37,621 bases of DNA from NCBI GenBank assembly GCA_028278405.1, contig JANQEK010000028.1, forward strand, positions 1 to 37,621, in the 5' to 3' direction. Position 1 is the stretch's first letter; every line of letters begins with the position of its first letter. This document shows, piece by piece, positions 30,640 through 34,974 of the stretch. The translations under genes and the position numbers were made by a program. This DNA is from Nitrospinaceae bacterium. Its GTDB lineage: Bacteria; Nitrospinota; Nitrospinia; Nitrospinales; Nitrospinaceae. The notes beneath the pieces are model-generated. The model was not told where the DNA came from. It was given only the letters and a program-made list of their open reading frames with translations, and did not search any database.

Positions 30640-30756
30640 TTATCTTTTTTTTCTGATTTTTACTGGAACCGGAGCGCCTTTGAGGAGCAGCCAGAGGCTG
30701 GCGGAGAAGAGTAGTATTCCGAGCAGCAGCAGACCATCGATATTTGCGAATGTCAT
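30640..30756 (-). CDS. 38-residue single-span membrane microprotein
   Basis: An open frame from ATG 30756 to TAA 30640 codes for 38 residues. Residues 8-25 are almost purely hydrophobic (many Leu, with a Trp), and the last six residues K-I-R-K-K-R are strongly basic, which predicts a single membrane helix with the C-terminus in the cytoplasm by the positive-inside rule. AAAGGA lies 7 bases before the ATG. It begins 11 bases after the stop codon of the three-repeat PCP_red gene, so co-transcription is likely. Its small size, good ribosome binding site and hydrophobic-then-basic layout argue against a chance frame. No homolog is known to me. Confidence 0.65.
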   Translation of the reverse strand: MTFANIDGLLLLGILLFSASLWLLLKGAPVPVKIRKKR

Positions 30757-30767
30757 AATATTTTCCT

Positions 30768-31619
30768 TTAGAAACTAAATCGGTATTTGTCGAACATTTC
30801 CATTGAAACTTCGGTAACGTTTTCTTTTTTCACTTCGGATTCGATGCGCTTGATTGCCATCTCGCGGATGAACGGAATCGGGATTTTCATGACTTTTGCC
30901 TTGGCGTCGTCGTGCCATGTCAATTCGAAATCCGGTTCCTCGTCCTGTTGCGCTTCGTAGTCGACGTCCCTCTGTTTATCTTCTTCCGTTACTTCCATGC
31001 CCATCGCTTCTTTTGCAGAAGCGGGCATGACATTGTTGAACACTTCTTCGATGATATCGGGCGTGATCATTTTGTCGCCCCGCTGCCGTGCGCGGCCTTC
31101 GATGGTCTGCTTGGCCATACCGAGCACGAAAGGCGGCACCTTCTCCATTTTCTCTATGGCCTCCTTGGACCACGGCATGCCGCTGGTCGGAGCGGTTTCC
31201 ATATAATTCTTGAACTTGTCGACGATGTCTTCCTTCTTCTCGGTGCGCAGAGCGAGAAAATCCTGGATTTCCTCAATCACTTCCACCTTGCGCGGACTCT
31301 CGACCATTTTCTGTTTGGCGACATCGAATGCGCCCATGGACAGTTCTTCGAAGCCAAACTGCTTGACGCGCTTGGAGACCAGCATCATTGATTCGTTGCG
31401 GATTTCCGTGAGGAAGTCGGAGGTGATGTACTTGAAACCGCGTTTGACGGCGCGCTGAACCATGACCTTGCGGATACCGGGCCGCACGAATTCCGGGGCG
31501 TGCTTGACGCGTTCCCAGGCCTCGACCGTCCACTCCACGCCCATTTCGTCGGCGTAGGGATGATCGACGCGGTCGGATGCCTCGATTTCCTTTTCGTGTG
31601 CGGTATAATCCTCTGCCAT
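30768..31619 (-). CDS. Protein with three PCP_red (protochlorophyllide-reductase tail) repeats
   Basis: A 283-residue soluble protein. Three related segments fit the PCP_red domain, which normally forms the C-terminal tail of the B subunit of dark-operative protochlorophyllide reductase: residues 30-77 (W...A...APEFVRPGIRK...A..RG...IT), 150-197 (W...A...VPPFVLGMAKQ...A..RG...IT) and 235-279 (W...A...IPIPFIREMAI). The third is the most divergent. There are no cysteines at all and no oxidoreductase domain, so it cannot by itself ligate an iron-sulfur cluster. Stand-alone PCP_red proteins occur in non-photosynthetic bacteria; their role is unknown. ATG 31619 is chosen over an upstream extension because GGAAGG lies 9 bases before it. 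The microprotein gene follows directly. Confidence 0.78.
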   Translation of the reverse strand: MAEDYTAHEKEIEASDRVDHPYADEMGVEWTVEAWERVKHAPEFVRPGIRKVMVQRAVKRGFKYITSDFLTEIRNESMMLVSKRVKQFGFEELSMGAFDVAKQKMVESPRKVEVIEEIQDFLALRTEKKEDIVDKFKNYMETAPTSGMPWSKEAIEKMEKVPPFVLGMAKQTIEGRARQRGDKMITPDIIEEVFNNVMPASAKEAMGMEVTEEDKQRDVDYEAQQDEEPDFELTWHDDAKAKVMKIPIPFIREMAIKRIESEVKKENVTEVSMEMFDKYRFSF

Positions 31620-31746
31620 AAGGTGGTTCCTTCCGGATCGGGCTTGGCAAAACCCGCAATTTGATTTATGGTTGCGGAGTGTCCCCCTGTCCATAAAACT
31701 ACTGAAACACCGGTTTAATGTCAATCCATTTAAGGGATTTTTGAAC

Positions 31747-34700
31747 GTGACGACACCTGCCCAACCTTCCCGGCTGGTTTATCTCTATTTCTTCGTCTCC
31801 GGGATCACCGCCTTGGTTTACGAGATCATCTGGACGCGCCAGTTGACGCTGGTGTTCGGCCATACCGTGTATTCCGTATCCATTGTTCTTGCAGCGTTTA
31901 TGGCAGGGCTCGGGTTCGGCAGTTATATCTGGGGACATCATATCGACCAGGAGGTGACTCGGCAGAAGGAGACATCCCCTCTGCTCGTGTATGGGAGGAT
32001 CGAAATCCTCATATTTGCCTCCAGCGCCGTGTTGTCGCTGATCTTTTCGGAATTTGATGTAGTGTATGCCTGGATACACCGCGGGTTGCCGGAATCGCCG
32101 GCCCTGTTCAACACCGTCAAGGCTGTGTTGGCGTTTCTCCTGATGTTCATTCCGGCAACCTTCATGGGAGCCACGCTACCCATCATCAGCAAATACTACG
32201 TGACCGACAACAACCGCCTGGGGACGCAGATCGGGTATCTGTATTCCATCAATACCTTGGGCGCGGCGGTGGGTTGTGTGTTGACGGGCTTCATATTCAT
32301 TTCCATCTTTGGAGTATTGCAGACAGCGTTACTCGCCTCCTGTGCCAATCTCATTATTGGTATCGGGTGTATTCGCATTTATCAGGACGAACATCCGGGT
32401 GAGAAAGTACCGTGGCGTTTTCCAAAAATCGAATGGCCTTCGGTGACACTGAGTGCGGATCAAAAATTGTGGCTGGCTGTCAGTTTCGTGTGCGGATTTA
32501 CCGCGCTGGCTTATGAAGTGTTGTGGACACGCCTGCTGGTGTTCAGTATCGCCAGTACGGTGTACTCGTTCAGCCTGATGCTGGCGGTGTTCCTGCTCGG
32601 CATCTGTATCGGCAGTCTGGTAGTGGTCCCGCTGATGGCCCGTGTCTCTCCTTTACGAACGATCTTGATTGCCCTGCAGGCGGGGATCGGAGTTTATGTG
32701 CTGTTCACTTTGTTTGCAATGGAGAGCCTATTGTCCGCGCCCTGGAACAGCTACAACCTGATGAATCCCGGCAAAACCTTTTTGCGTTACTTCAAGGATT
32801 CGACGGCATTGATGTTACTGCCGACCCTGTTGTTCGGAATGAATTTCCCGGTACTCATCAAACTAGCGGCGGGCAGGCACGAGCATGTTGGAGGCGGTAC
32901 AGGCCAGGTCTATTCGGCGAACACGCTGGGCGCCATCCTCGGTTCGCTGGCAAGCGGGTTTGTGTTCCTCCCCTGGCTGGGCATGGAAAAAAGCCTGATG
33001 GTGGTGGCGACGCTCAATTTGTTGATGGTGCCCCTGTTATTTGGAACCGGAAGTTATTCCACACCTGCATTGCGTAAGGGGATTGCAGGCGTGACAGCGG
33101 CGGCGGTGCTCGCATTAAACGCTCTGTTGCCCGGAAACCTGCTCGACCGATTCTTCATGCGCGACAGCGCCGGACAACGGGATTCGAGCACGTTGTTGTA
33201 TTTCGAAGAGGGGCTGACGGATACAGTGGCTGTATTCAAGGATGAGTACGGAATCCTCGATCCCACCGCCAAACGGTTGATCACCAACGGTATTTCCATG
33301 TCGTCCTCGAACGTGATCGCTACCCGATATATGAAACTGTTGGCTCATGTGCCGATTTTGCTGTCCGATCATCCGGAAAACGTGATGGTGATCTGCTTTG
33401 GAACAGGGCAGACCACCGGCGCTGCCGGTATTCATCCGCTTGTCGAGCGGGTAGACAGTCTGGAGTTGTCGCCCAGCGTACTCAACGCCGCTCCCTCGTT
33501 CAAGACTGAGAACCATGACGTGGTGAACAATCCGAAAGTCCACTTTGTGGTACAGGACGGGCGCAACTTTCTTTTGACCACGCAGAAGTCCTATGACGTG
33601 ATTACCGGCGAACCACCCCCTCCGCGCACGGCGTTTACCGTGAATTTATATACCCGGGAATTCTATGAGTCCGCGCGGAACCGGCTTAAGCCGGGGGGCC
33701 TCATGGCGCAATGGATTCCCCTGCACAGCCAGAGTGCCGAAGAAGTCGACATGCACTTTAAAACGTTCCTTTCCGTATTTCCTCATGCCATCGCCTGGAT
33801 GCCCGTTGCCAACGAAATGTTGATTATCGGATCGGACCAGCCCATTACCATCGACTTTAAAAAACTGAAGAAGCGGATGGCGGAGCCCGCCGTGGCCCAG
33901 ACGTTGCGGGATATTTTTATTCCTGACGCCCATAGCCTGCTCAGCAACATTTGGTTTCTGGAGGAGGCCATGCAAAACCTCTCGGCGGGACGTTTCTTGA
34001 TTACCGACAACCGGCCGCGCATTGAGTTTTATCTCGATTATGGAAAGGTCATCGGTTCTGCCGGCCTGGAAAGACTGGTGTTTAACCGGACGCCCGTTAC
34101 CGAGATCCTCTCACGTATTTCAGGTATGGAGTATGAGGATACAAAGCGGTTCAAACACCAATATCGGGCGATGGGTTTGTATCAGCGGGGGGTGATGTAT
34201 TCCAATCGAGGGTTGCTGTTGGAAGCCATTCAATTATCCGGTAACGGAGATTTGCCCCGGTATCATCTGCAGGCGGGGAGGGATCAGATCAACCGCCTGC
34301 AGGCTCAACTCAAAAAGGATCCCGGCAACCTGGAGATGTTGCTGAATCTGGGCCACGCCTATTATCAAATCGGGGAATATGCGCGCAGCGTTGAGTATCT
34401 GGAACAAGCGTTGGAGCGGGAACCCAGACAGGGAATCGCCAACCTGTATCTGGGGTACAGCCTCATGGAGTTGGGGCAGTGGGCGGAGGCGCGGAAAAAA
34501 CTGGAGACCGCGGTCAAAAACGATACACGCCAATTGCGAACGGTTATGCAGGAAGTGGGCTTGATCGAGTTGATGGGCAAGGTGAAGGAGAATCCGGGAG
34601 ACCTGAACCTGCTGAACGCTCTGGCCCAATTTTATAATGTAAAGAATGAATACGGGAAATCTCTCGAATACTCCAACCGGGTTCTGGAAAATGATCCCAT

Positions 34701-34974
34701 GAATGAAGATGCATTGAAAAGCGCCTTATTCAGTTATCGGGGCAGGGGAGAGCCGCGGGAAGTGATCGGCGCAAGCATCCGCTACGAAATGGTGAAACCC
34801 GATGATATCCACTACCAATTCATTATGGCAGAAATCTATGTGAAACTTTTGAAATGCCACAAGGCCATCCCGTATCTTGAGAAAATCCTGAAAACAGATG
34901 ATACCTACCCGAAGGCGCAAAAACTGATGGACCATTGTCGAAGAAAGACAAGGGAGAACGTGCCGATGTCGTGA
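31747..34974 (+). CDS. Fusion of membrane domain, spermidine-synthase-like domain and TPR tail
   Basis: A 1075-residue protein. Residues 1 to about 490 hold roughly 13-14 hydrophobic spans arranged as two halves that begin with similar words, 'GITALVYEIIWTRQL' and 'GFTALAYEVLWTRLL', indicating internal duplication. Residues about 510-720 resemble spermidine synthase: 'VMVICFGTGQTTGAA' for the SAM-type loop, 'VERVDSLELSPSV', 'VHFVVQDGRNFL' and 'LKPGGLMAQW'. The family's catalytic D-S-T-D-P is replaced by G-E-P-P-P-P, so polyamine synthesis is unlikely. Residues about 840-1070 contain TPR-like repeats. The start is GTG 31747, nine bases after AAGGGA, rather than the upstream TTG 31672. It diverges from the PCP_red gene. 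Confidence 0.85.
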   Translation: MTTPAQPSRLVYLYFFVSGITALVYEIIWTRQLTLVFGHTVYSVSIVLAAFMAGLGFGSYIWGHHIDQEVTRQKETSPLLVYGRIEILIFASSAVLSLIFSEFDVVYAWIHRGLPESPALFNTVKAVLAFLLMFIPATFMGATLPIISKYYVTDNNRLGTQIGYLYSINTLGAAVGCVLTGFIFISIFGVLQTALLASCANLIIGIGCIRIYQDEHPGEKVPWRFPKIEWPSVTLSADQKLWLAVSFVCGFTALAYEVLWTRLLVFSIASTVYSFSLMLAVFLLGICIGSLVVVPLMARVSPLRTILIALQAGIGVYVLFTLFAMESLLSAPWNSYNLMNPGKTFLRYFKDSTALMLLPTLLFGMNFPVLIKLAAGRHEHVGGGTGQVYSANTLGAILGSLASGFVFLPWLGMEKSLMVVATLNLLMVPLLFGTGSYSTPALRKGIAGVTAAAVLALNALLPGNLLDRFFMRDSAGQRDSSTLLYFEEGLTDTVAVFKDEYGILDPTAKRLITNGISMSSSNVIATRYMKLLAHVPILLSDHPENVMVICFGTGQTTGAAGIHPLVERVDSLELSPSVLNAAPSFKTENHDVVNNPKVHFVVQDGRNFLLTTQKSYDVITGEPPPPRTAFTVNLYTREFYESARNRLKPGGLMAQWIPLHSQSAEEVDMHFKTFLSVFPHAIAWMPVANEMLIIGSDQPITIDFKKLKKRMAEPAVAQTLRDIFIPDAHSLLSNIWFLEEAMQNLSAGRFLITDNRPRIEFYLDYGKVIGSAGLERLVFNRTPVTEILSRISGMEYEDTKRFKHQYRAMGLYQRGVMYSNRGLLLEAIQLSGNGDLPRYHLQAGRDQINRLQAQLKKDPGNLEMLLNLGHAYYQIGEYARSVEYLEQALEREPRQGIANLYLGYSLMELGQWAEARKKLETAVKNDTRQLRTVMQEVGLIELMGKVKENPGDLNLLNALAQFYNVKNEYGKSLEYSNRVLENDPMNEDALKSALFSYRGRGEPREVIGASIRYEMVKPDDIHYQFIMAEIYVKLLKCHKAIPYLEKILKTDDTYPKAQKLMDHCRRKTRENVPMS

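Follow-up and report, generated by a model that had tools for sequence, protein, structure and literature searches.

A conserved protein of three PCP_red modules and a helical segment in Nitrospina-type bacteria, with a possible role in heme synthesis

Background

Here we describe a bacterial protein that consists of three PCP_red modules (PF08369) and a conserved helical segment, an architecture that is new within this known domain family. Its gene lies in a 37,621-nucleotide contig of a Nitrospinaceae bacterium (JANQEK010000028.1 of assembly GCA_028278405.1), which was analyzed at its full length and is referred to as the window. In our preferred reading, to which we assign a probability of about 45 %, this triple protein is a non-catalytic adaptor that is recruited to the membrane and serves the final steps in the synthesis of heme b. 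We propose a role with heme enzymes because PCP_red is found fused to, or encoded with, enzymes of heme synthesis. More generally, the distribution of the domain suggests a membrane organization of heme synthesis, not of chlorophyll synthesis.

If this holds, PCP_red, so far familiar only from the end of a chlorophyll enzyme, would become the marker of a heme-assembly system in bacteria that account for a large share of marine nitrite oxidation and of anammox. A nearly universal and very slowly evolving gene would gain candidate partners (ChdC, a radical SAM protein, a Usp protein and a microprotein), and the tail of ChlB would have a possible reason to exist, as a docking module and not as part of the catalytic fold. 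Literature searches under the PCP_red domain name, the accession PF08369 and the full name of the domain returned no paper on such proteins, the domain receiving at most a passing mention. Among papers on protochlorophyllide and Nitrospina, or on protochlorophyllide reductase and Nitrospira, none treats the triple protein in its title or abstract, and the ChlB tail is not a topic of PMC4157233.

Results

Three PCP_red modules and a conserved helical segment

A preliminary description of the window, made from the sequence, had proposed that three PCP_red segments form a single protein free of cysteines and of any reductase or other catalytic domain, in a window devoid of chlorophyll-synthesis genes. 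Each of these points was borne out. Profile search with PF08369 gives a clear match to the 283-aa protein in three stretches (E 7.7e-29; score 99.9 bits, cut-off 32.5), and each of the modules exceeds this cut-off on its own (Table 1). By composition the protein has 0 Cys, a pI of 5.0 and a net charge of about -14. Nothing besides PCP_red reaches its cut-off in a Pfam scan of the protein, and its strong NCBIfam matches cover only the C-terminal tail, about positions 454-533, of BchB/ChlB models. All five matches to BchB models in the genome are confined to this tail and the BchB catalytic domain is absent from the whole genome, so that the absence of a chlorophyll gene extends genome-wide for the BchB subunit. 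By score and by fold, the triple protein is a member of PF08369. A tandem repeat at the DNA level was looked for in the gene and none was found; the modules are therefore not recent duplications. A terminator-like site 3′ of the gene was also looked for, and none was found.

Table 1. Features of the window and other PCP_red genes of the same genome
Feature	Sequence	Position	Strand	Residues or length	Basis or remark
Triple PCP_red gene	window	30768..31619	-	283 aa	ATG at 31619; ORF and Pfam
PCP_red module 1	window	31401..31532	-	residues 30-73	33.2 bits, profile search of genome
Helical segment MID	window	31179..31388	-	residues about 78-147	alignment and model; starts at MM of R-N-E-S-M-M
PCP_red module 2	window	31044..31172	-	residues 150-192	48.4 bits, profile search of genome
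PCP_red module 3	window	30786..30917	-	residues 235-278	35.7 bits, profile search of genome
Microprotein gene	window	30640..30756	-	38 aa	single TM, basic tail; starts 11 nt past stop codon of triple gene
MFS-like/spermidine synthase/TPR fusion gene	window	31672-34974	+		divergent from triple gene
PCP_red (N-terminal) + Cld family, ChdC/HemQ (C11)	L012	6551-7513	+	320 aa	PF06778 E 3.7e-58
Radical SAM/SPASM + PCP_red (C36)				449 aa	best NCBIfam matches NirJ2 and AhbD
Usp-Usp-PCP-(zinc-ribbon-like)-PCP-PCP (C1)	L009	5704-7764	+	686 aa	
CxxC-bearing small protein + PCP_red (C44)	L010	5410-6750	+	145 aa	9 nt behind Mrp/NUBPL-type ATPase gene

The further idea that three repeats make up the whole protein held for the modules, but these are accompanied by a conserved extra segment spanning residues about 64-148, from the last helix of module 1 onward. 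The region beyond the end of module 1, named MID here, falls outside the coverage of PF08369, and the stretch that joins modules 1 and 2 shows the same degree of conservation as the modules themselves. In an alignment of 62 sequences from several phyla, W30, A34, R37, P42 and G48 of module 1 are invariant, as are R74 just ahead of MID and M79, R84, G89 and A101 within it; M78 is nearly so. No Cys or His is conserved across the phyla of this alignment.

Predicted fold

A first AlphaFold2 model, built with 30 close relatives, had a pLDDT of 68, with values under 50 over a large part of the helical segment, and was superseded by a model from the deeper alignment of 62 sequences (pLDDT 86.8, pTM 0.77). 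In the latter, MID forms helices at residues 95-104, 109-124 and 130-142. Superposition of the repeats on the BchB tail, proposed as a check in the preliminary description, was obtained for modules 2 and 3. When the model was compared by VIA-align, module 2 superposed on the tail of ChlB in 2YNM, the DPOR complex (rmsd 1.1 Å over 50 residues, 26 % identity). Module 3 superposed on the NMR structure 2KRU of the BchB PCP_red domain (Z 7.9, rmsd 2.1 Å). Module 2 also aligns to 2L09, and Foldseek gave probabilities of 1.00 for 2L09 and 0.99 for 2KRU. Module 1 shares its helix order with PCP_red, but among the matches listed for it there were only Clp-type AAA+ lids (Z about 5.9), and its assignment to PCP_red takes the Pfam score as its basis.

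Relation to known systems

By profile and fold (2KRU, 2L09, 2YNM) the triple protein resembles the PF08369 domain that ends the 57 kD subunit (BchB/ChlB) of dark protochlorophyllide reductase. It differs from BchB/ChlB in having three modules and a helical segment, in lacking the nitrogenase-like catalytic part as well as the cysteine ligands of the DPOR Fe-S cluster, and in coming from a genome that encodes no BchB. The small Nostoc protein Asr4154 (PDB 2L09), a lone PCP_red domain, is likewise enzyme-free, but it has one module and no helical segment. The Nitrospinota version of ChdC/HemQ (PF06778) carries an N-terminal PCP_red, and module 1 plus MID form the C-terminus of AhbD/NirJ2-type radical SAM/SPASM proteins in Anammoxibacter and others, whereas the triple protein has neither a ChdC nor a radical SAM domain. 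Identification of the triple protein as a DPOR subunit, a ChdC or a radical SAM enzyme was rejected, since the required domains are absent according to Pfam.

A core gene of Nitrospina-type bacteria

Full-length orthologues with 71-98 % identity are present in about 50 of 61 relatives, with contig-end fragments in a few more, and nearly all of these carriers are named Nitrospina, Nitrospinaceae or Nitrospinota in a GTDB scan. The triple gene is nearly universal in its order and is a core gene of nitrite-oxidizing Nitrospina-type bacteria. It is under very strong purifying selection, with a dN/dS of 0.02-0.07 between the window gene and those of congeners. In 18 of the 19 loci that were parsed, the triple gene and the fusion gene with MFS-like, spermidine synthase and TPR parts are transcribed divergently, and NIF3 is the other conserved neighbor; no heme gene adjoins the triple gene of the window.

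Directly downstream of the triple gene lies the gene of a membrane microprotein (Table 1). Comparable ORFs, defined by a length of 30-60 aa, a hydrophobic stretch, a tail charge of at least +3 and a start no more than 60 nt away, occur in 28 of 55 distinct regions downstream of orthologues, against a mean of 0.12 (maximum 1) in 50 shuffles. The remaining 27 regions failed these strict limits, and one of the 28 matches (L042) may be due to chance. The sequence is variable (dN/dS 0.26, from one pair), and a tail motif P-V-x-I-K/R or similar keeps recurring. Following the positive-inside rule, the tail is predicted to lie on the cytosolic side and might there retain the triple protein, which is acidic. 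Other Nitrospinota (L142-L146) have a gene for a small hydrophobic membrane protein directly upstream of a gene for module 1 and MID, and a probable homologue of that protein, with 28 % identity, is encoded in the HemY cluster of L229.

PCP_red on heme enzymes of the same genome

The window's genome encodes other proteins with PCP_red (Table 1). One belongs to the Cld family, has coproheme decarboxylases as its closest PDB chains and is the only coproheme decarboxylase of the genome. A Cld-family match was obtained in 28 relatives, and each of them has just one strong match, a protein of this kind; one genome has a second, weak match. All 11 Cld-family proteins checked have PCP_red at the N-terminus together with the Tyr of the YPF motif and the His of the DEH motif. 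Because ferrochelatase and HemY/CgoX, at one copy each, are present together with this PCP_red-bearing ChdC, the genome fits a coproporphyrin-dependent heme pathway whose last enzyme bears PCP_red.

The radical SAM/SPASM protein with PCP_red scores 327 bits with NirJ2 and 318 bits with AhbD, both under the equivalog cut-off of 500, and its family resemblance suggests that it may act on coproheme. The step from coproheme to heme b is carried out by HemQ (PMC5157759); AhbD makes heme from Fe-coproporphyrin III (PMC3942049). They are unrelated enzymes for one reaction, and here both HemQ and a relative of AhbD bear PCP_red. The carriers BchB/ChlB, ChdC/HemQ and NirJ2/AhbD-like radical SAM are otherwise unrelated, and they act on tetrapyrroles or resemble enzymes that do. 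ChdC has only the PCP_red module in common with the triple protein, and the fusions tie module 1 and MID more directly to radical SAM and Usp proteins than to ChdC. Since PCP_red is also borne by Usp proteins and by a protein encoded beside an Mrp/NUBPL ATPase, the domain may be a more general adaptor.

Module 1 and MID as a unit in other phyla

Other phyla were surveyed by the GTDB scan and by reading of gene regions. In fusion proteins module 1 and MID move as one unit, with or without module 2 depending on the protein. The unit stands alone as a protein of ~190 aa in other Nitrospinota (L142-L146, L149), and a bin labeled 'Deltaproteobacteria' (L152) has a stand-alone triple protein. In Nitrospirota (L153, L155-L159) it forms the C-terminus of a Usp-Usp-PCP protein whose gene overlaps or abuts that of a radical SAM-PCP protein (-8 to +2 nt). 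The radical SAM protein itself ends in the unit in Anammoxibacter, in two Nitrospirae bins and in a Nitrospinota bin, and there its gene follows one for Usp-PCP; the measured gaps between these genes are 1 nt (L150), 5 nt (L154) and 153 nt (L160). One Nitrospirota locus (G135) links the unit to heme synthesis: a radical SAM-PCP-MID gene, with Usp-PCP upstream, stops 1 nt ahead of a protoporphyrinogen oxidase gene (TIGR00562, 304 bits against a cut-off of 97.85), a neighbor also found in L229 and L230.

Other contexts are respiratory. In Anammoxibacter (L232, 6112-12484) a PCP-rubredoxin-PCP-PCP gene is divergent from an operon of NxrC-like (cyt c + EB_dh), NxrA-like and NxrB-like genes. In G085, genes for type-II DMSO-reductase alpha and beta subunits (TIGR03478 match of 503.6 bits, above its cut-off), a cyt bd-like protein, a cyt c, a metallo-beta-lactamase-fold protein, a Usp-PCP-MID protein and a radical SAM-PCP protein lie on one strand. 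Cyt c/EB_dh genes are neighbors in L231 and L234, and cyt c and cyt bd-like genes in L228.

Homologues occur in 100 of 246 Nitrospirota genomes. The largest homologue group consists of copies that are presumably of Nitrospira type; those in the regions read are stand-alone proteins of ~330 aa encoded behind cmk-plsC-rpsA-sppA-(IHF). Those of L218-L227 and L237 have four PCP_red stretches and MID, with an IHF/HU-like gene nearby in some. The survey of gene neighbors of multi-repeat homologs that the preliminary description had called for thus yielded heme-enzyme, Usp and respiratory contexts, the Nitrospira-type copies having no heme-gene neighbors in the regions read.

Discussion

In the adaptor mechanism that we infer, the PCP_red modules of the triple protein would dock with other bearers of PCP_red, namely ChdC/HemQ, the AhbD/NirJ2-like radical SAM protein and the tandem Usp protein, and MID would offer a second interaction surface. 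The basic microprotein would hold the acidic triple protein at the inner membrane. The steps from coproheme to heme b would be gathered near the membrane, from where heme would pass more readily to nitrite oxidoreductase and the rest of the heme-rich respiratory chain. The earlier suggestion of a scaffold or binding module for a tetrapyrrole agrees with the finding of related modules fused to or co-encoded with heme-synthesis enzymes. More tentatively, and with clear reservations, PCP_red could be a general docking module of tetrapyrrole-synthesis enzymes. It would then mark an unrecognized membrane-bound heme b assembly complex in Nitrospinota, Nitrospirota and anammox bacteria, composed of multi-PCP_red scaffolds, the microprotein, PCP_red-ChdC, PCP_red-radical SAM and Usp-PCP_red proteins and feeding nitrite oxidoreductase and cytochromes.

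The respiratory loci raise the alternative that the triple protein helps nitrite oxidoreductase and related type-II DMSO-reductase complexes to assemble or mature, acting for example on the heme b gamma or Mo/Fe-S subunits, and does not serve general heme synthesis. The divergent Nxr-like operon of Anammoxibacter, the Usp-PCP-MID and radical SAM-PCP genes behind the type-II DMSO-reductase genes of G085, and the cyt c/EB_dh and cyt bd-like neighbors of L231, L234 and L228 all favor it. However, no NXR gene lies beside the PCP_red genes of the window's own genome in the 14-kb stretches around them, and the ChdC fusion and the HemY operon indicate heme itself, which leaves this alternative unlikely. 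The 'unrelated metalloenzyme' of the preliminary description was half right: PCP_red genes accompany NXR/type-II DMSO-reductase alpha and beta genes at two sampled loci of other phyla. A co-occurrence test of NXR in Nitrospirota with TIGR03479 was set aside, since it scored just three candidates per genome and the genomes presumed to carry NXR belong to a single clade.

It is quite improbable, in our estimate, that the triple protein itself binds or carries a tetrapyrrole (coproheme or heme) with M78 and M79 as candidate ligands. The conservation of these residues across phyla is what such a carrier would lead one to expect, and BchB, which bears the module, acts on a tetrapyrrole; yet neither Cys nor His is conserved across phyla, and the fold is like that of AAA+ lids, which are interaction modules.

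Usp proteins suggest another function, that of a general adaptor in a stress or redox response of the Usp type, to which tetrapyrroles would have no special relevance. Usp-Usp-PCP proteins match the triple protein in their spread across the phylum and are paired with the radical SAM gene in Nitrospirota, and the Nitrospira-type copies sit in the rpsA-sppA-IHF cluster. This function would leave the ChdC fusions, the HemY operons and the BchB tail unexplained, and we regard it as distinctly unlikely. A relic of a chlorophyll-synthesis (DPOR) gene, for which the common module and nothing else speaks, can be dismissed almost entirely: it is contradicted by the strong purifying selection (dN/dS 0.02-0.07), by near universality in the order, by the absence of the BchB catalytic domain from the genome, and by occurrence in phyla with other gene contexts.

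At residues 224-283 the PCP_red fold of the model also resembles the small lid of the AAA+ ATPases RuvB and Clp, with Z scores reaching about 8. An identity as an AAA+ ATPase of the RuvB or Clp kind was rejected, as Pfam finds no AAA domain and the likeness is limited to the small helical fold. Matches to histones and AAA+ lids in Foldseek and VIA are read as a common small helical arrangement, and we claim no DNA role. Among the database records, one titled Emcibacteraceae (L126) carries a Nitrospinota-type triple gene with 74 % identity and is likely a mislabeled or mixed bin.
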